A stretch of DNA of 64,000 nt from Flavobacteriia bacterium (GTDB lineage Bacteria; Bacteroidota; Bacteroidia; Flavobacteriales; Weeksellaceae): the NCBI GenBank assembly GCA_019455045.1, contig JACFND010000002.1, positions 60,044-124,043 on the forward strand. The letters run 5' to 3'. The notes under the pieces are model-generated. The model searched no databases and was not told the DNA's origin. It saw nothing but the letters and a program-made list of their open reading frames with translations. Within the stretch, counting starts at the first letter, position 1. Every line of letters begins with the position of its first letter. The position numbers were made by a program, and so were the translations under genes. Shown here piece after piece: positions 17,668-53,027 of the stretch.

Positions 17668-18147
17668 TCATTTTGGCCAATTGGTTTTTTCATACATTTC
17701 ATATATTTTTGGAATATCTTCATCGTCCAATACAAACTGATACTGATTGGTATTCAGTTTATTAAAAGCATCTTTGTATTCAAAAACAACAAAGAAGTGT
17801 TTGCCGCCAGGTACAACTTTTCTGATTTTATAAACTGCCAGAACCAGGCTAAGAAGCTTTATATCCTTTGGGTTCCAATAAAAAATAAAAGGTTGAAAAC
17901 CAACCTTGAACTTCCTGAAATAAAAAATACTCGGCAATACGAAAATCTGTCCGTCACAAAATATCAAATCACAAATTTGATTGAGTTGATTTTTACCTTC
18001 TCTTGAAACGTATGCAACATCATTCAACATCATATACTCTTTATCCTGAAGCCATATCAGCATTTTTCTTTTTTCATTTTTGACAAAAATTAAAAACAAA
18101 AAAATCATTACAAAAAAACCGGCAAGCAGAAAAATTAGAACTGTCAT
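17668..18147 (-). CDS. Small membrane-anchored protein of unknown function
   Basis: A 159-residue protein with one strong transmembrane segment at residues 3-22 followed by a positively charged KNEKRKM stretch, which places the rest in the cytoplasm. The remaining 135 residues are a mixed alpha-beta domain rich in aromatic residues, with no motif that I recognise. A perfect -7 element 35 bases upstream and a clean gap on both sides support a real, separately transcribed gene. Confidence 0.65.
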   Translation of the reverse strand: MTVLIFLLAGFFVMIFLFLIFVKNEKRKMLIWLQDKEYMMLNDVAYVSREGKNQLNQICDLIFCDGQIFVLPSIFYFRKFKVGFQPFIFYWNPKDIKLLSLVLAVYKIRKVVPGGKHFFVVFEYKDAFNKLNTNQYQFVLDDEDIPKIYEMYEKTNWPK

Positions 18148-18294: not shown

Positions 18295-19341
18295 TCAAAC
18301 AGTCAGTGACTTATTGTACTCATTTATTCTTCCCAAAGCGATATTTATAAAATCACGGTTTGAAAATAATTCAGTTTTTCGATTGCTCCAATTGTTCAGC
18401 TTTGAGATTATAATTTCGGAATCTTTGGTATTTTCCTTTTCGGAAATATAATCAATCGTAGAAAGTAATTCCAATCCAAAAGGTGAATAGAAACCGTCCA
18501 AAAAGTTTTTGGTTTTTTCAGCAATTTCCAAATATTCTTGATTGGGTTGATTTTTCAGATAATCCAAGACTTCGTTTTCGGTATCCATAACCAAACCGAT
18601 TTCTTCAAACGGTTTTTTGTCTTTGGAACTGTAATCAAAAATGTAGCTGCCGTTCAGGTAATGCAGCAAATGCCTTACTTTGCCCGAATACGGGCCATAG
18701 AAGTTTGGTTCAAATTCCAGATGAAAAGCGTTTTTAGCTCCAAAACGTTGAAGGAAATAAGCTATTTTTTCAGCCGAAAATTCAGAAACGAATTCACCGT
18801 TTCTTACCAAATCAAACAAAACGGCCAAAAGCATTGCTCGAGCCGGCGTCAGTTTTACCCTTTCTTTTTTCAGAGTTTCTTTAATTTTGACATTTGGTTC
18901 ATACACCAACACGGAAGTATCCAAATCACTTAAATATTTCTCAATCAGTGTTTTCACATTTTCCCAAACCAGTCCGCCGTTACCCGCGCCCAAAGCCGGT
19001 AAGGCAACAGATTCAATATCATTCTCTAAAATAAATTTTCGCAATTCAACCAGACCATCCTCGATATAGCTGTATTCTGACGGTTTTCGCCAATCGGTTT
19101 TTGTTGGGAAGTTGATGATTATTTTTTCACCTGAAATCAGATTTTTATCTGTTGCGATTAAGAGTTTTCCGATCCTCAATTCTTTATTCCGATATGCTTC
19201 TCTGTATGTTTTATAATTTTCGGGAAAAGCGTTTTTGAATTGCAGAGCAATCCCTTTACCCATAACCCCAACGGTATTCACGGTATTCACCAATGCCTGA
19301 GCATCACTTTCCAGTAAATTTCCTTCAACGTACTTAATCAT
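18295..19341 (-). CDS. darG: DarG-type antitoxin: macro-domain ADP-ribosylglycohydrolase
   Basis: A 348-residue antitoxin of the DarTG type. Residues 1-150 form a macro domain: EGNLLESDAQALVNTVNT, GVMGKGIALQF and ALPALGAGNGGL line the ADP-ribose pocket, and FPTKTDWRKPS carries the lysine region important in DarG. The domain removes ADP-ribose that DarT places on thymidine in DNA. The C-terminal half (from about residue 165, TPARAMLLAVLFDLV... and YGPYSGKVRHLLHYL) corresponds to the part that in known DarG proteins binds and restrains the toxin; it resembles Panacea-like domains. An in-frame TTG precedes the chosen ATG, which lies 3 bases after the darT stop, so the two genes are co-translated. 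Confidence 0.92.
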   Translation of the reverse strand: MIKYVEGNLLESDAQALVNTVNTVGVMGKGIALQFKNAFPENYKTYREAYRNKELRIGKLLIATDKNLISGEKIIINFPTKTDWRKPSEYSYIEDGLVELRKFILENDIESVALPALGAGNGGLVWENVKTLIEKYLSDLDTSVLVYEPNVKIKETLKKERVKLTPARAMLLAVLFDLVRNGEFVSEFSAEKIAYFLQRFGAKNAFHLEFEPNFYGPYSGKVRHLLHYLNGSYIFDYSSKDKKPFEEIGLVMDTENEVLDYLKNQPNQEYLEIAEKTKNFLDGFYSPFGLELLSTIDYISEKENTKDSEIIISKLNNWSNRKTELFSNRDFINIALGRINEYNKSLTV

Positions 19342-19344
19342 CAA

Positions 19345-19968
19345 TCAAAAATAAAAATTTTCACGAACTGCAATTAATTTATCTTGGATTCCAAAATTCA
19401 ATAATCGTCCTTTCGCTTTTTCTTTATAAACAACCCAACCTGAAATAACGTCCAACGGAATATCTCCTTCCACTAAAAATTCAGCTTCTTTTCTCCGTTT
19501 TAAATCCAGGTCTTCTTCATCATTCCAAAAGGTCTTTTTAATTGCATCAAAATCTATTATTTCATCCAATAAATTCACCTCATTTTTTCCAAAGAATTTG
19601 GACAATTTACTCACCGCATGACCATTCGTAAAAAGAAACGGAAGCCGCGATTGGATTATTTTCTCAATATTCGTTATACAATATACAATATTTTCAGGAT
19701 TCTGAACAGTAACCCCATTATAGCCTTTTTGAACAACGTACAGCATCGGCATTCGATACCAGAAATAAAAAGGAAGAAATTCATTGAGATTTTTTCCATT
19801 GGGAACAGTTACGGTGCCGCGTCTGTCAATAAGGCTGTTGTCTCCAATCGGTATATAATTTTTGTTTGCACTTTTTGAGTTGGCAAGCGTCAGACCGTTT
19901 GACAGGATATGTTGTACATTCTCAATATGCACCATCCTGAAAAGACGTATTTTATTTGACTCAGTCAT
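19345..19968 (-). CDS. darT: DarT-type DNA thymidine ADP-ribosyltransferase toxin
   Basis: A 207-residue DarT (DUF4433) toxin. Family members transfer ADP-ribose from NAD+ to thymidine in single-stranded DNA, blocking replication; they act in growth control and phage defence. Visible residues match the family: an early histidine in RMVHIENVQHIL, the arginine in SLIDRRGTV, the histidine in TNGHAVSKLSKFFG, and the catalytic glutamate in KRRKEAEFLV. The set appears intact, so the toxin is probably active. The start is the ATG at 19968: a TTG at 19977 falls inside the -7 promoter element. Toxin precedes antitoxin, as is usual for darTG. The tRNA-Arg gene and its terminator lie 50 bases upstream on the same strand. 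Confidence 0.92.
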   Translation of the reverse strand: MTESNKIRLFRMVHIENVQHILSNGLTLANSKSANKNYIPIGDNSLIDRRGTVTVPNGKNLNEFLPFYFWYRMPMLYVVQKGYNGVTVQNPENIVYCITNIEKIIQSRLPFLFTNGHAVSKLSKFFGKNEVNLLDEIIDFDAIKKTFWNDEEDLDLKRRKEAEFLVEGDIPLDVISGWVVYKEKAKGRLLNFGIQDKLIAVRENFYF

Positions 19969-19974
19969 ACATAA

Positions 19975-19982
19975 CAAAAGTA
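19975..19982 (-). promoter_or_regulatory. -7 promoter element (TACTTTTG) of darTG
   Basis: Perfect TAnnTTTG match on the minus strand. Its last base lies 7 bases before the darT ATG, which predicts a leaderless darTG mRNA. Confidence 0.55.
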
Positions 19983-20020: not shown

Positions 20021-20049
20021 AAAAACCGCAATTTGTATTGCGGTTTTTG
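20021..20049 (-). terminator. Intrinsic terminator of tRNA-Arg
   Basis: An 11-bp perfect stem (AAAAACCGCAA / TTGCGGTTTTT) with a 7-base loop directly follows the tRNA 3' end on the minus strand and is trailed by TTTTTCTTTTTC. It also insulates darTG from tRNA transcription. Confidence 0.8.
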
Positions 20050-20123
20050 TGACCTCGGCAGGATTCAAACCTGCAACCTTCTGAGCCGTAATCAGATGCG
20101 CTATTCAGTTGCGCCACGAGGCC
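20050..20123 (-). tRNA. tRNA-Arg (anticodon ACG)
   Basis: A 74-base gene including the discriminator A. The acceptor stem GGCCTCG pairs with CGAGGTC (one G-T pair). The anticodon arm is TCTGA-TTACGGC-TCAGA, giving anticodon ACG, which reads CGU and, after A34-to-I editing, CGC and CGA. The T arm contains GGTTTGAATCC. CCA is not encoded and must be added. The 3' end runs directly into a strong terminator, so the tRNA is a single-gene unit. Confidence 0.95.
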
Positions 20124-20224: not shown

Positions 20225-21289
20225 ATGAAATATCTGAGCTTTCTTTTGTCAATTCTGATTTTTTCGATCGGCTGTAAAAATGAACCGAAAACCGATTCGA
20301 AAACCGAAAATCAGAATCTTTTAAAATATTCAAAACAGTTGAAAATGACTGAATCAGCAGACAGTCTGTTTATCTTTTCGGGCAATGAGAAGCTGTCATT
20401 TTCAAAAAATGAACTTCCGCTGAAATCGGCTATGGTAGTTCCGACTTCCGTTCTCAGTTATCTGGATGAACTCGATCTGATCGGTACGGTCAAAGGAATC
20501 AGCCAGCCCGATTTTGTATTCAATCCGAAAATCATTGAATTGTACAAACAAAATAAGCTGGAAGTGATCGGCTCTTTTGATGAAATTTTTGTCGAAAAAA
20601 TACTGGTTTCAAAACCCGATATCTTTGTTACTTCTTCAGGTCCGACACTTGCAAAATATCATCAGCAAATCAAAAATTCGGGGATCAGACTGCTTTATAT
20701 CGATGAATATGACGAGGCAGAACCGCTGGCGAGAGCTGAATATTTAAAGGTGTTCGGAAGGCTGTTTGGTAAGAAAAAAGAAGCGGATGAACTGTTTGAC
20801 GAGATTGAAAAAAATTACAAAGAAATCATTTCAAAAATCAAAGATTCAAACAAAAACAAACCGACTGTTTTTGCCAATCAGATTTATGGCGATGTCTGGT
20901 ATATGCCGGGCGGAAGAAGTTTTCAGGCAAGACTTTTCAAAGATGCTGGCGGCGATTATCTGTGGAATGACGATGATACTGACGGCAGTCTGAAACTGAC
21001 TTTTGAATCGGTTTATGAAAAAGCAGCAAATGCAGATTTCTGGCTGAATGCAGGTGATTTTCCAAATTTGAAATCGCTGACCGGAAGCTATAAAAATTAC
21101 GAATGGTTTGCGGCGGTCAAAAACAAAAAGGTTTACAACTGGAACAAACGGTCAAATGAAAAAGGTGCAAATGATTATTTCGAAACCGGAACGGCTCGTC
21201 CGGATTGGGTTTTGAAAGATCTGGCAGCAATTTTTCATCCGGAGTTATTTCCGGGACATGAATTGGTTTTTTATGAGAAGCTGGAGTAA
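20225..21289 (+). CDS. TroA-like substrate-binding lipoprotein of an iron/haem/cobalamin ABC transporter
   Basis: A 354-residue binding protein of the BtuF/FhuD (TroA-like) class. It has a lipoprotein signal ending in FSIGC (lipobox cysteine at about residue 17), then a binding domain with the typical long linking helix (EADELFDEIEKNYKEI). Segments such as IDEYDEAEPLARAEYLKVFG and KNKKVYNW resemble siderophore- or haem-binding members. The permease and ATPase genes are not adjacent, so substrate is inferred only by class. The haemin-type TonB receptor at 25771-28155 is a possible partner. Its stop touches the stop of the convergent trypsin-like gene with no gap. Confidence 0.87.
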   Translation: MKYLSFLLSILIFSIGCKNEPKTDSKTENQNLLKYSKQLKMTESADSLFIFSGNEKLSFSKNELPLKSAMVVPTSVLSYLDELDLIGTVKGISQPDFVFNPKIIELYKQNKLEVIGSFDEIFVEKILVSKPDIFVTSSGPTLAKYHQQIKNSGIRLLYIDEYDEAEPLARAEYLKVFGRLFGKKKEADELFDEIEKNYKEIISKIKDSNKNKPTVFANQIYGDVWYMPGGRSFQARLFKDAGGDYLWNDDDTDGSLKLTFESVYEKAANADFWLNAGDFPNLKSLTGSYKNYEWFAAVKNKKVYNWNKRSNEKGANDYFETGTARPDWVLKDLAAIFHPELFPGHELVFYEKLE

Positions 21290-22687
21290 TTACTTAGATT
21301 TAAACCATTTAAAGAAATCCTTTAAGGAAGAGTATTTTCTTCTTGTTCCATCAATTTTAGAACCCTCCTCAAGCTTTGGATGTACTTTATTGTTTTTCAC
21401 TAAATACTCTTGTAATTGTTTTGTTTGGATTCCATAATTGAAATTCTGTGTATTTAAAAAACCGGCAAAATTAACAGAGACCACTCGTCCATATTTATCA
21501 AATATAGGTGAGCCGCTAGATCCTTGGATAGCAGGAATTGTATACAGCATTTTATATAAGTCGTTTACTTGGCTAATGTTCCCCTCAGTCAATTGCGAGT
21601 TGATGCCATTTGTCGTTTCAGCTATGATTAAACCATTGTTAAAACCAATCATCCTAACTCGTTCATTCATTCTTCTTGGCTTGATTTCAATTGAGTCGAG
21701 CAAACTCAAATCCACGTGGTTAAATTTTTTAAGGCTTAATTCATTTATGTTTTTGGCACTTAATAATGCTAAATCAACATTTTCTTTTTCTGAAACGTCA
21801 GTAATTTTATATTTTACACCGTCTTTGTTATCTATATTTATTTCTTTATTGAAAAATATTTCAACTTCATTTGAAATCACTGAAACAGAATTTGTAGGAT
21901 TTACAAAAGCATTTAAAATAAGTTCATAAACTTGTATGGAGTCCGTCACTTGTTCCTGTGATTGTTTTAAGTTTTGCCACTCATACTCTAAAAGACTGTA
22001 TTCGTATGAGTTTGGATTTGTATAATATGCTGCATAACGTAATTCATTAAGTCTATTCTCTAGTTCTCGCTGCAAGTCAACATAAAGGCCTAACCTATAT
22101 TCCACCATATCTCTTTTTTGGCTGAAAAAACTATTCTGTTCTTCTTCTGTTGGATTCACCTGAAGTAAATGCCTGTTTGTAATGATATCTCCGTTTGAAT
22201 TTATGATAAACCCAGTCCCATATACCACACTCACATCTTTCCTTATATCGGATATGTTTTCTTTCAATTCCGCCTCTCCATTATTAAAATAACTAGAATA
22301 ATAAATTTTATCCCCTAATTTTATTTCGTAATAATAGGTATGCTTAATTAAAACAACAGCACTTTCATACTTATTATAAAGCTCTTCAGAGCTTAACTCT
22401 ATCAATTCAGGAGTTTTTTCTTGGAGGAATTTATACCAATAATAACCTACGCCACCTAAAATACTGATTACTATTGCACCAATAAGCAAGAAAAACCTCC
22501 ATCTGTTTTTTCTTGGAGGAATTCTTTCTAAAATAATATTTAACTCTGGAATTCTATCTAAACGTTGCCAATCTGCCGAACCTTCAACCCAAATTTTAGT
22601 ACTTTTCTTTAATTTTTTGCTTTGAAGCTCAGCTAAGCTATAGGCTACATTTTTACCCTTTTCTCTTAGATAGTATTTCTGCTCCAT
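21290..22687 (-). CDS. Membrane-anchored trypsin-like serine protease with N-terminal GYF_2 domain
   Basis: A 465-residue protein. Residues 5-55 form a GYF_2 (DUF4339) module (YYLREKGKNVAYSLAELQSK, then IWVEGSADWQRLDRIPEL). One transmembrane segment follows at about 64-86, then a trypsin-like domain. The catalytic triad is visible: His about 173 in ITNRHLL, Asp about 305 in ENVDLALL, and Ser about 391 in QGSSGSPIF. Between His and Asp is an insertion of over 100 residues predicted to be largely helical or coiled (residues 180-260). The likely layout is a cytoplasmic GYF module and a periplasmic protease. The ATG at 22687 is preferred to an upstream TTG. It ends a four-gene AT-rich run behind the DUF2971 gene. 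The substrate is unknown. Confidence 0.8.
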   Translation of the reverse strand: MEQKYYLREKGKNVAYSLAELQSKKLKKSTKIWVEGSADWQRLDRIPELNIILERIPPRKNRWRFFLLIGAIVISILGGVGYYWYKFLQEKTPELIELSSEELYNKYESAVVLIKHTYYYEIKLGDKIYYSSYFNNGEAELKENISDIRKDVSVVYGTGFIINSNGDIITNRHLLQVNPTEEEQNSFFSQKRDMVEYRLGLYVDLQRELENRLNELRYAAYYTNPNSYEYSLLEYEWQNLKQSQEQVTDSIQVYELILNAFVNPTNSVSVISNEVEIFFNKEINIDNKDGVKYKITDVSEKENVDLALLSAKNINELSLKKFNHVDLSLLDSIEIKPRRMNERVRMIGFNNGLIIAETTNGINSQLTEGNISQVNDLYKMLYTIPAIQGSSGSPIFDKYGRVVSVNFAGFLNTQNFNYGIQTKQLQEYLVKNNKVHPKLEEGSKIDGTRRKYSSLKDFFKWFKSK

Positions 22688-22694
22688 AGTCAAC

Positions 22695-23075
22695 TTACTC
22701 CTGTTGCCAAGATTCTATTTCAAACCCTCTACCAATTCTATTCTTTTCGTCAGAAAGAACTATACGATAGGGGATCCTCTTATCATTTAATCCGATAGTT
22801 ATCACTAAGGTTTCATAATAAAAATAACCTATAACATCTCCGATATCACGCCAAGTAGTAAAAGGAATAATCGTTTTTTGATTACCAGAAAAAAAAGCAA
22901 AATGTTTGTTATTATAATCTCTTGTTATACTAACATTAGTTACATCATAGCATTCAATTACTTTATTTTGTCTATCATAATCCAACTCACATACTTTGTT
23001 AATTTTATAAAAACTTCTTTGACCGACAGCAATTCCGCCAATTAATAAAATCAATAGTCTAAGATATTTTCCCAT
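22695..23075 (-). CDS. Small exported protein of unknown function
   Basis: A 126-residue protein with a short hydrophobic N-terminus (YLRLLILLIGGIAVGQ) that looks like a signal peptide. The mature part is a beta-rich domain of about 105 residues with several charged turns (RQNKVIECYDVTNVSITRDYNNKH). I recognise no family. Its stop lies 7 bases before the start of the GYF-trypsin gene, so the two are probably co-translated. The DNA is AT-rich like the rest of the unit. Confidence 0.65.
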   Translation of the reverse strand: MGKYLRLLILLIGGIAVGQRSFYKINKVCELDYDRQNKVIECYDVTNVSITRDYNNKHFAFFSGNQKTIIPFTTWRDIGDVIGYFYYETLVITIGLNDKRIPYRIVLSDEKNRIGRGFEIESWQQE

Positions 23076-23111
23076 AGTTTATGAATTTTGGACTTTACCT
23101 GTAAACATTCC

Positions 23112-23471
23112 TTATTTTAATTGTGATATGACCCCATCCAAAAGCATTAGAGCATTTAATTCTCGACAATATTTATTGTATGTTGCACGAGAAATGGTTT
23201 TGTAGTAATAATTATAGATATCATAATTATCTATTTTATAATAATCACAAACGCCTCTGCTATTAATATTTAATTGTGCAATAAATTCTCTATCACTTTC
23301 AACCGAATTAAAAAACCGTAATATTTGATCATATGTTAAAACCTTTAATCTGTTAACGAACTTCATTTCTACCAATTGAGATACCTGTCTCAAATCACTT
23401 GAATTAAAATCTTGTTGAGCTGACATTTGTATTGATATCACTAAAAAAATTAAAAGGCAAATTCTTTTCAT
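23112..23471 (-). CDS. Small exported protein of unknown function
   Basis: A 119-residue protein with a convincing signal peptide (RICLLIFLVISIQMSAQ) and a mature part of about 100 residues, rich in tyrosine and asparagine and predicted mostly helical, containing two cysteines. No family was recognised. Its ATG overlaps the DUF2971 stop as ATGA, so translation is coupled to that gene. Export of a small protein from the same transcript as a membrane-anchored protease suggests a functional link such as substrate or inhibitor, but this is only inference. Confidence 0.65.
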   Translation of the reverse strand: MKRICLLIFLVISIQMSAQQDFNSSDLRQVSQLVEMKFVNRLKVLTYDQILRFFNSVESDREFIAQLNINSRGVCDYYKIDNYDIYNYYYKTISRATYNKYCRELNALMLLDGVISQLK

Positions 23472-24091
23472 AGAAAAATATTTAAATTATTATATCCTTG
23501 TCTTTTGATAAGTATTTCAGGCTTTATTCTATTAACTAATTTTTTAATAAACTCAAATTCTTCGCCTGTCATTTCTCTTCCTGCAATGACTTCTTTTACC
23601 TTTATGTTTATATACTTATTTCCATTCGTAAAGGCTCTCATTTCTTTTTCATAGCAAAAGTCTTGGAGCTTATGAGATAAGATTTGTTTTGCCACATCTT
23701 TATGATTTAATTCCTCCGAATATGATATAGTGGGAAATGTTTCCACATAAGTTATAGGAGAACAACGATTTTCATTAATCTCAACGACTATTAATACTCC
23801 TGAATAATTATCCGCATACTCCTTCCACATCTCATCGCTATTTCCATCTTTGGATAGACAACAAATCTTTATCCTACTTTTTTGATCTAAAACTTCTTTT
23901 ACAAAAATATCCTTGATTTTTTCGTCTGTGATTGAAAAGTAATACGCACCTTCTTTCTTATCATTCCCATTTTCTCTCAAATTCCGATAATTGGATGCGT
24001 AAAGTCTTTCATTTAGTATTATATCTACAAAATGTTTAAATCCGTCCCCTTTTAAACTTTTGTATTTGTATAGTTGTAGTTGGCTGGTCAT
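23468..24091 (-). CDS. DUF2971 domain protein
   Basis: A 207-residue cytoplasmic protein resembling DUF2971. Typical features are the opening LYKYKSL, a LYASNYRNL segment (family: l.fs.p..fNDP), the CCLSKDGNSDEMWKEYADNYSGVLI segment (here split as ICCLSKDGNSDEMW and YADNYSGVLIVVEI; family: sFs....n.lMWshYa..h.G..igf), and a late CYEKEMRAF. DUF2971 proteins occur often in accessory and defence loci, but their activity is unknown. A GTG start at 24124 is possible; I prefer the ATG at 24091, which starts just before the conserved opening. It is the first gene of the leftward four-gene unit and is divergent from the XRE regulator. Confidence 0.72.
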   Translation of the reverse strand: MTSQLQLYKYKSLKGDGFKHFVDIILNERLYASNYRNLRENGNDKKEGAYYFSITDEKIKDIFVKEVLDQKSRIKICCLSKDGNSDEMWKEYADNYSGVLIVVEINENRCSPITYVETFPTISYSEELNHKDVAKQILSHKLQDFCYEKEMRAFTNGNKYINIKVKEVIAGREMTGEEFEFIKKLVNRIKPEILIKRQGYNNLNIFL

Positions 24092-24229
24092 TAGGTTAAG
24101 CTTTAGATTTTCACAAAAATCCACTTCAGAACTATCATTTCCAATAAAATAGCATGATAAAATATTGGATAGGAAGATATTTTATAGCAAATATGTGTTA
24201 ATTTTAAGATATTTTGATACTTTTACTTT

Positions 24230-24598
24230 ATGAAAAGTATTGGAAAGCGTATAGCAACACAACGCCGTTTGAAAAACTGGAAGCAGGAAAAATTAGCTTC
24301 AGAGCTCGGTGTTTCACAAAGTGTATTATCAGATATAGAAAATGATAAAATATCTCCTAAATGGGAATTCATTGTTTCCGTTGCAGAAAAGTTGGAAACA
24401 CCTATTTATACACTCCTTCCTCAAGATACTTTCAATATTATGAATAACAACAACAACCATAATGTCGGTTATATCCAAAACAATTACGCAGTTACAGAAG
24501 AAGAACGGACATTCTATAAAGAAACAATTTCAAATTTGCAGGAACAAAACGCAAAACTGATGATACTTTTGGATAAATTATCTGATAAGTTGGATTAA
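24230..24598 (+). CDS. XRE-family DNA-binding regulator with C-terminal coiled coil
   Basis: A 122-residue protein. Residues 5-60 form a helix-turn-helix of the Cro/C1 type (GKRIATQRRLKNWKQEKLA, ELGVSQSVLSDIEND). An asparagine-rich linker (IMNNNNNHN) and a C-terminal coiled coil (about 85-122) for dimerisation follow. It is divergently placed 138 bases from the DUF2971 gene and is AT-rich like it, so it probably controls that unit and itself. A near-consensus -7 element (TACTTTTA, 24218-24225) lies just before the ATG, giving a very short leader. Confidence 0.85.
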   Translation: MKSIGKRIATQRRLKNWKQEKLASELGVSQSVLSDIENDKISPKWEFIVSVAEKLETPIYTLLPQDTFNIMNNNNNHNVGYIQNNYAVTEEERTFYKETISNLQEQNAKLMILLDKLSDKLD

Positions 24599-24708: not shown

Positions 24709-25728
24709 TTAAAACAACTCCGACTTAAACTGCTCCAAAAATCGCAAATCATTTTCGGTGTACATACGGATATCACCGATTTGATACAACAACAAAGCAA
24801 TTCGTTCGATTCCCATTCCAAAGGCGAAACCGGTATATTCTTCCGGATCTATATTTACGTTTTTCAACACATTGGGATCGACCATTCCGCAACCCATAAT
24901 TTCCAACCAACCGGTTCCTTTGGTCATCCGGTAATCGGTTTCGGTTTCTAATCCCCAATACACATCTACCTCAGCGCTCGGCTCAGTAAACGGAAAATAA
25001 GAAGGACGCAAGCGAATTTTTGATTTCCCGAAAAGCGCTTCGGTAAAATAACTCAAGGTCTGACGCAAATCGGCAAAAGAAACATCTTTGTCAATGTAAA
25101 GCCCCTCGATCTGATGGAACATCATGTGCGAACGGGAAGAAATCGCTTCGTTTCGATAAACTCGTCCGGGCGATAAAATCCGCATGGGCGGTTTATTTTC
25201 TTCCATATATCGGATTTGAACCGAAGAAGTATGCGTTCTCAGTACCACATCCGGTTCTTTTTCTATGAAAAATGTATCCTGCATATCGCGTGCTGGATGG
25301 TGTTCTGGAAGGTTTAAGGCAGTAAAGTTATGCCAGTCGTCTTCGATTTCGGGTCCGTCGGACAGTGTAAAACCAATTCTTGAAAAAATCTCAACGATCC
25401 TGTTTTTCACACTGTTAATCGGATGTCTGGAACCGATTTCAAAATTCTCTCCCGGTCGGGTCAGATCGATTCCCGAAGTGACTTCGGAAGAACCTTCCAG
25501 CGCTTCTTTCAGCGTATTTACTTTATCGTTGACCAGATTTTTGAGTTCGTTCACCACCTGGCCAAATTCCTTTTTCTGTTCGTTTGGAACCGTTTTGAAA
25601 TGAGCAAACAAATCATTCAGTATTCCTTTTTTACCAAGAAATTTGATTCTGAATTCTTCAATTTCAGCTGATGAATTTGTTGAAAAACCTTTTGCTTCTT
25701 CTATATATTTTCTGATCTGATCAATCAT
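24709..25728 (-). CDS. pheS: Phenylalanine-tRNA ligase subunit alpha
   Basis: A 339-residue class II aminoacyl-tRNA synthetase alpha subunit, which charges tRNA-Phe as a heterotetramer with PheT. The N-terminal coiled coil (residues 1-85) and the catalytic motifs are present: [12 protein letters not shown] (motif 1 region), [14 protein letters not shown] (motif 2 region) and [11 protein letters not shown] (motif 3). pheT is not in the window, which is normal in Bacteroidota. It marks the right-hand return to ordinary core genome after the AT-rich accessory stretch. Confidence 0.97.
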
Positions 25729-52356: not shown

Positions 52357-52971
52357 TCATTTAGTTTTAATACTTTTCCCTAATGCAAAAAGTTGCCTGT
52401 CTGTCCAATAGAAGAATTCCTTTCTACTATTATTATCCATGTCTTTCCCTAACTCACGAAGCCAATTTTTATAATCTTCAATTTCATCCTCTTTTATTTG
52501 AGAAGAATCCTTAAGTTTTCGATACTTAATTATTTCATTCTCTGATTTAGCTCTATGGACAAGAAATGCTCTAATAACATGTTGGTCTACAATGGGGTGC
52601 TCTTCTGGTTTTGCAATAAATTTCCCGAAGTTGTAAAAAACCAAAGCACTTTTCTTTCTATTTTCTTTGTTATGGGCATCTTCTATTCCGTGAATAATAT
52701 GTTCGATTTTTTGTAAATCTCCTTGTTTCCATGCAAGTGCATAAAGTAATTTAGCTAAAGGATTATTAATATTTGAAGAATCTAAAGAGATTTCTCTTAA
52801 TTCGCTTTCTAAAATATCAAATTCAATTCTTTTAGAATTCTCTGTATTCACATAATTCTTTTTATAATCATTCAAAATAGAATTTTCAATTTCTTTTATT
52901 TGACTTAAATCTTTGAGTTCTATAATCTCAAAGACTTCTTTAGTTATTTCAATTAAGCTTTTCTTGACCAT
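52357..52971 (-). CDS. AT-rich gene for a helical cytoplasmic protein of unknown function
   Basis: A 204-residue protein, predicted almost wholly helical and strongly charged, with isolated features such as LAKLLYALAWKQGDLQKIEHIIHG (seen in parts: LYALAWKQGDLQKIEHI) and a late RKEFFYWTDRQLFALG. No family was recognised. It is clearly more AT-rich than its neighbours, which suggests horizontal origin. A frame extends to a TTG at 53022, but the -7 element at 53020-53027 overlaps that codon, so the ATG at 52971 (MVKKSLIE) is preferred. It is the first gene of a two-gene unit with the zinc-ribbon gene. Confidence 0.6.
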   Translation of the reverse strand: MVKKSLIEITKEVFEIIELKDLSQIKEIENSILNDYKKNYVNTENSKRIEFDILESELREISLDSSNINNPLAKLLYALAWKQGDLQKIEHIIHGIEDAHNKENRKKSALVFYNFGKFIAKPEEHPIVDQHVIRAFLVHRAKSENEIIKYRKLKDSSQIKEDEIEDYKNWLRELGKDMDNNSRKEFFYWTDRQLFALGKSIKTK

Positions 52972-53019
52972 ATTTTTTGTATTAGTATTCAAAATATGTC
53001 CATTTTTATTGATTAAACT

Positions 53020-53027
53020 CAAAATTA
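53020..53027 (-). promoter_or_regulatory. -7 promoter element (TAATTTTG) of the unknown two-gene unit
   Basis: Perfect TAnnTTTG match on the minus strand; predicted mRNA start near 53014, with a leader of about 43 bases. Confidence 0.45.

Follow-up and report, generated by a model that had tools for sequence, protein, structure and literature searches.

GYF domains generally bind proline-rich peptides, and many ADP-ribosyltransferases (ARTs) have a strand that opens with a conserved acidic E-x-E motif. The DUF2971/PDC-S31 family has the status of a defence candidate in PADLOC (as PDC-S31), and our literature search turned up nothing published on PDC-S31 or on what DUF2971 proteins do. Clades of ARTs are given as H-H-h, H-Y-[EDQ] and R-S-E (PMC9503650), and CmdTAC is an earlier case in which structure prediction together with conserved residues led to the recognition of an ART as a defence effector (PMC11618068). 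Here we describe an islet in a 64,000-nucleotide stretch of a Flavobacteriia bacterium genome (Weeksellaceae; contig JACFND010000002.1, positions 60,044 to 124,043), referred to here as the window, in which a DUF2971 gene stands beside two genes for small exported proteins and a gene for a GYF-transmembrane (TM)-trypsin protease.

Layout and acquisition of the islet

The islet of ~3.4 kb lies between the convergent genes for a periplasmic binding protein and PheS, and it was horizontally acquired. Its features and surroundings, in window coordinates, are:

18295..19977, minus strand: DarG (18295-19344) and DarT (19345-19977), cargo of a separate tRNA-Arg element
20049..20123, minus strand: tRNA-Arg(acg), integration site (3' side) of that separate element in two congeners
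20225..21289, plus strand: left flank, periplasmic binding protein (Peripla_BP_2, by Pfam), a conserved pheS neighbour in congeners
21290..22693, minus strand: GYF-TM-trypsin gene (open reading frame list and Pfam)
22695..23075, minus strand: gene for a 126-aa protein with an N-terminal hydrophobic export-type segment
23112..23471, minus strand: gene for a 119-aa protein with an N-terminal export-type segment
23468..24124, minus strand: DUF2971/PADLOC PDC-S31 gene (profiles and model), with a predicted ART-like fold
24125..24229, no strand: putative divergent promoter/operator region with inverted repeats
24230..24598, plus strand: divergent XRE (HTH_3) regulator, 122 aa (open reading frame list and Pfam)
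24709..25728, minus strand: right flank, pheS (congener comparison)

All five open reading frames (ORFs) of the unit described in the original prediction are present, with four tightly spaced leftward genes and an XRE gene (HTH_3 Pfam match, 1.2e-10) that diverges from them, and the AT-rich composition remarked on there is borne out by the numbers (GC of 0.264-0.325 in islet genes vs. 0.409 ± 0.037 in the window's other 54 ORFs; z-scores of −2.3 to −4.0); just two of the window's ORFs outside the islet fall below a GC of 0.335. The DUF2971 and 119-aa genes overlap by 4 bases, a 36-base gap separates the 119-aa and 126-aa genes, and the gap from the 126-aa gene to the protease gene is 1 base with a TTG start or 7 bases with an ATG start at 22687, the latter being probably the true start of the protease. 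For DUF2971, the ATG at 24091 is the more likely start, since its relatives begin there. Such close packing, with one 4-base overlap, points to co-transcription and to some selection on gene order; the four genes form a probable operon, which the divergent XRE protein would regulate, and the inverted repeats between them (e.g. ATAAAATAT at 24157-24165 and ATATTTTAT at 24177-24185) may act as its operator. At the far end, the protease stop codon abuts the binding-protein stop codon at 21289/21290. Elsewhere in the window, a 221-aa ORF (52357-53022, minus strand; GC 0.275, z −3.7), for which Pfam and PADLOC searches gave no match, is likely another acquired gene.

We compared the locus across five genomes of the same genus, three complete and two fragmented. 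The binding-protein gene and pheS are convergent neighbours in 3/3 complete congeners, 0, 224 and 134 bp apart, with neither flank matched in the two fragmented ones, and the protease, DUF2971, 126-aa and 119-aa proteins are absent from all five. Horizontal acquisition, as had been predicted, is therefore well supported by the empty site in three complete congeners (the comparison of close relatives that the prediction had proposed as a check), by the skewed GC content and by the patchy distribution of relatives, and the simplest reading is an insertion of ~3.4 kb in the window lineage.

The prediction had also placed the islet 1.3 kb from a DarTG pair, which is indeed where DarT begins, and had supposed that the tRNA-Arg neighbourhood might be an insertion hotspot. 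The tRNA-Arg does serve as an integration site in two congeners, but for another element on its 3' side and not for the islet. In these congeners, G001 (L024/L170) and G005 (L026/L171), an element of ~9 kb runs from the tRNA-Arg 3' end to a 14-bp repeat of that end (14/14 positions in G001; 13/14 in G005, where the repeat is immediately flanked by the last cargo gene on one side and the conserved NA37 gene on the other). Its cargo comprises an XRE gene, two small exported proteins, a tyrosine recombinase, a Rep-like protein, DarTG, and a CD-NTase and TIR-STING effector that make up a CBASS pair. On the 3' side of the window's tRNA-Arg, only DarTG and one ORF remain, neither of which is found in a further congener (G002). 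The window's DarTG, 72 bp from the tRNA-Arg and accompanied by neither recombinase nor CBASS, is probably a reduced form of the ~9 kb element; between DarG and the NA37 gene lies a 159-aa ORF (17668-18147, minus strand; GC 0.304) with an N-terminal hydrophobic segment and no family. The islet lies 5' of the tRNA, from which the binding-protein gene separates it, and not in the interval from the tRNA 3' end to its repeat; it is an insertion separate from the tRNA-Arg element. The tRNA-Arg site is itself a ready place to seek defence cargo in the genus.

The DUF2971 protein

The DUF2971 protein of the window matches PADLOC PDC-S31 (PDLC04991) at 3.1e-46 over residues 17-214 and Pfam DUF2971 (PF11185) at 1e-3, slightly below the Pfam cut-off. 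A close relative was found in 1 of 59 near genomes (G008), adjoining a SHOCT-TM gene, and weak relatives in 9/395 genomes of the class. Relatives also occur on 18 plasmid records, where all those inspected are solitary, and, with a wider DUF2971 alignment as query, on 47 IMG/VR viral contigs; the window sequence used as query retrieved no relatives from these contigs. An XRE gene stands beside just 1/49 viral loci and 0/17 other loci, whereas the window copy has a divergent one.

In a 35-sequence alignment of the family, 12 columns are invariant (including N43-D44, M88-W89, Y92, K141 and E148-x-E150-x-R152), and the window copy retains 12/12, thus keeping the N-D, M-W..Y, K and E-x-E-x-R motifs. 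It differs, however, at near-invariant sites (H91E, W145F, P45K and L87E; position 91 is H in 34/35 sequences) and carries four extra residues ahead of N43, at the NDP motif. Given these departures and the insertion, the window protein is possibly impaired, and its sequence may be that of an altered, impaired or decaying copy.

The AlphaFold2 model of the protein reaches a pLDDT of 93.2. Its best four PDB fold matches are all of the ART fold (DarT twice, cholera toxin A1 and Tpt1), at a best E of 0.079 and a TM of ~0.40, with no match reaching E 0.001; against a viral structure library the best matches (best E 3e-4) are to unnamed proteins. The DUF2971 and DarT (PF14487) profiles showed no significant similarity (hhalign probability <1%), and a scan of the viral contigs for DarT found none. 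On balance we lean towards an ART-like fold for DUF2971, and the protein is probably an ART-fold enzyme of a toxin or phage-defence type, with a putative transferase activity. Were DUF2971 an ART, a family found on dozens of records of phages and plasmids, and already listed as a defence candidate, would gain a testable activity.

The protease, the small exported proteins and their linkage

Pfam recognises Trypsin_2 (1.3e-14) and GYF_2 (2.5e-6) domains in the protease. The GYF_2 domain is N-terminal (residues ~5-51) and is followed by one TM helix (~65-93 in the model), and the catalytic triad (H175, D307 and S393) is intact, as it also is in L005, a protein of Flaviaesturariibacter sp. that is the one full-length GYF-bearing relative found (33% identity). 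A long insertion separates H175 from D307 (132 residues vs. 33 in an ordinary secreted trypsin at L143; 87-143 in protease relatives where both motifs were found), and is modelled as a helical hairpin (183-223/230-264); this model, made from 2 sequences, is reliable only in parts and poor in the catalytic domain, and its fold matches were disregarded. The remaining relatives, which come from 9 further genomes among 335 of the phylum, are TM-only, export-signal or FHA forms, and neither a tblastn search of plasmids nor a viral-contig scan with the protease alignment returned any. The FHA-TM-trypsin proteins at L166-L169, distant relatives of the window protease, belong to gene clusters that encode Ser/Thr kinase- and PP2C-like proteins and are possibly phospho-signal-controlled periplasmic proteases. 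Because these relatives have FHA in place of GYF and kinase- and phosphatase-like neighbours, the joining of a reader in the cytosol to a protease outside is a recurring plan.

The two small proteins have few kin. The 126-aa protein has no family match, and none of the 320 family genomes searched yielded a convincing relative; matches in four genomes were weak (E 4e-4 to 0.009, two in stop-broken frames) and were set aside, and a kinship with the exported proteins at L143, considered from the look of the sequences, was not borne out. The 119-aa protein has one relative, in another genus of the family (G022, L010:1489-1896; 29% identity overall), which lies ~4 kb from SHOCT-TM and GYF-TM genes and shares no operon with them. 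Further 119-aa matches in G089 and G270 resemble RidA proteins and were rejected as an artefact of the two-sequence model, and a viral-contig scan with the 119-aa protein found no relatives.

We then asked of these searches (59 + 395 genomes for DUF2971, 59 + 335 for the protease, 320 for the 126-aa and 59 + 286 for the 119-aa protein) whether the four-gene set recurs, and found no second instance. When all fetched loci were cross-checked, 0 DUF2971 loci had protease or small-protein relatives beside them and 0 protease loci had the remaining islet genes, so that the same genes were not seen together in independent genomes as they would be in a conserved multi-gene defence system. The original prediction had read the genes as a linked module, and had itself named unlinked genes in relatives as the outcome that would speak against a system; this is what the searched genomes show, with relatives of DUF2971, the protease and the 119-aa protein each occurring without the others. 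Its further idea of a sensor linked to a periplasmic protease fits the architecture of the protease, and stands as a conjecture as to function. Since the islet parts are elsewhere found only separately, mobile accessory genes have probably been combined here locally, and a conserved, widespread new system is not supported. GYF_2 genes occur in 24/316 family genomes, and small exported neighbours are not enriched at GYF-TM genes (4/16 vs. 28/162, P = 0.32). At L030/L133 and L131, in two genera of the family, SHOCT-TM genes are directly followed by GYF-TM genes, a possible recurring pair.

Readings of the islet and comparison with known systems

We favour, with a probability of roughly 0.45, an acquired accessory islet whose probable operon joins DUF2971 and membrane-protease genes that circulate independently. 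Under such an arrangement, XRE would keep the promoter low until stress or infection lifted its repression; the GYF domain, in the cytosol, would recognise a peptide rich in proline and the trypsin domain would cleave a target in the envelope or periplasm; the two small exported proteins might be cofactors, substrates or restraints of the protease. The DUF2971 enzyme in the cytosol and the protease in the membrane would then each act, in parallel, on the cell or an invader. Across all fetched loci, relatives give no sign that the DUF2971 and protease halves are functionally coupled. A bolder version, in which an XRE-controlled two-compartment conflict module combines an ART-fold DUF2971 of an unrecognised ART clade with a GYF-gated protease and its exported partners, we regard as doubtful.

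It is quite possible, if more tentatively held, that unrelated accessory genes simply accreted at an AT-rich permissive site, a solo DUF2971 coming to lie beside exported and protease cargo with no common function. The solitary DUF2971 relatives of plasmids, phages and genomes, the protease relatives that stand alone and the lack of enrichment of small exported neighbours at GYF-TM genes (P = 0.32) all agree with this, whereas the 4-base overlap and very short gaps, with the co-transcription and order selection that they suggest, argue against it. A dedicated anti-phage system that needs all four products could draw on the tight operon, the PDC-S31 assignment, the DarTG nearby and the CBASS in the neighbouring element of congeners; we nevertheless consider it improbable, as no second instance turned up in the searched genomes and the near-invariant His of DUF2971 is lost in the window copy. 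Just as improbable, in our estimate, is an envelope-stress or competition-immunity unit in which the protease would clear damaged or incoming periplasmic proteins, the small exported proteins would serve as adaptors or immunity factors, and DUF2971 would be a passenger. The Trypsin_2/HtrA-like domain, the solo TM-trypsin genes that adjoin housekeeping genes in relatives, and the signal-peptide trypsin that adjoins small exported proteins in a related member of the order (L143) are consistent with such a unit. However, a PDZ domain was not found in the protease, the islet has no toxin or secretion genes, and the L143 protease, which is of a different subfamily, has no long His-Asp insertion.

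Set against its described family, the DUF2971 gene of the islet stands in an operon while relatives stand alone. DarT and other ART-fold enzymes give the best fold matches of the DUF2971 model, at a TM of ~0.40, and the conserved acidic E-x-E at a strand start is common to DUF2971 and many ARTs; unlike DarT, with which it has no significant profile match, DUF2971 has no macro-domain or other antitoxin adjoining it. The protease has a distant trypsin-like similarity to DegP/HtrA, but scores 37 bits vs. a cut-off of 416 and has no PDZ match. The L005 protein has the same full-length GYF-TM-trypsin architecture, triad and insertion; it is solitary, with no other islet genes adjoining. The FHA-TM-trypsin proteins resemble the window protease in having a cytosolic peptide reader, one TM helix, a Trypsin_2 domain and an extended His-Asp spacing, and differ from it in having FHA in place of GYF and kinase- and phosphatase-like neighbours in place of small exported genes. 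Through this shared plan of a cytosolic GYF or FHA domain, a single TM helix and trypsin outside, a signal from the cytosol could lead to a cut in the periplasm.
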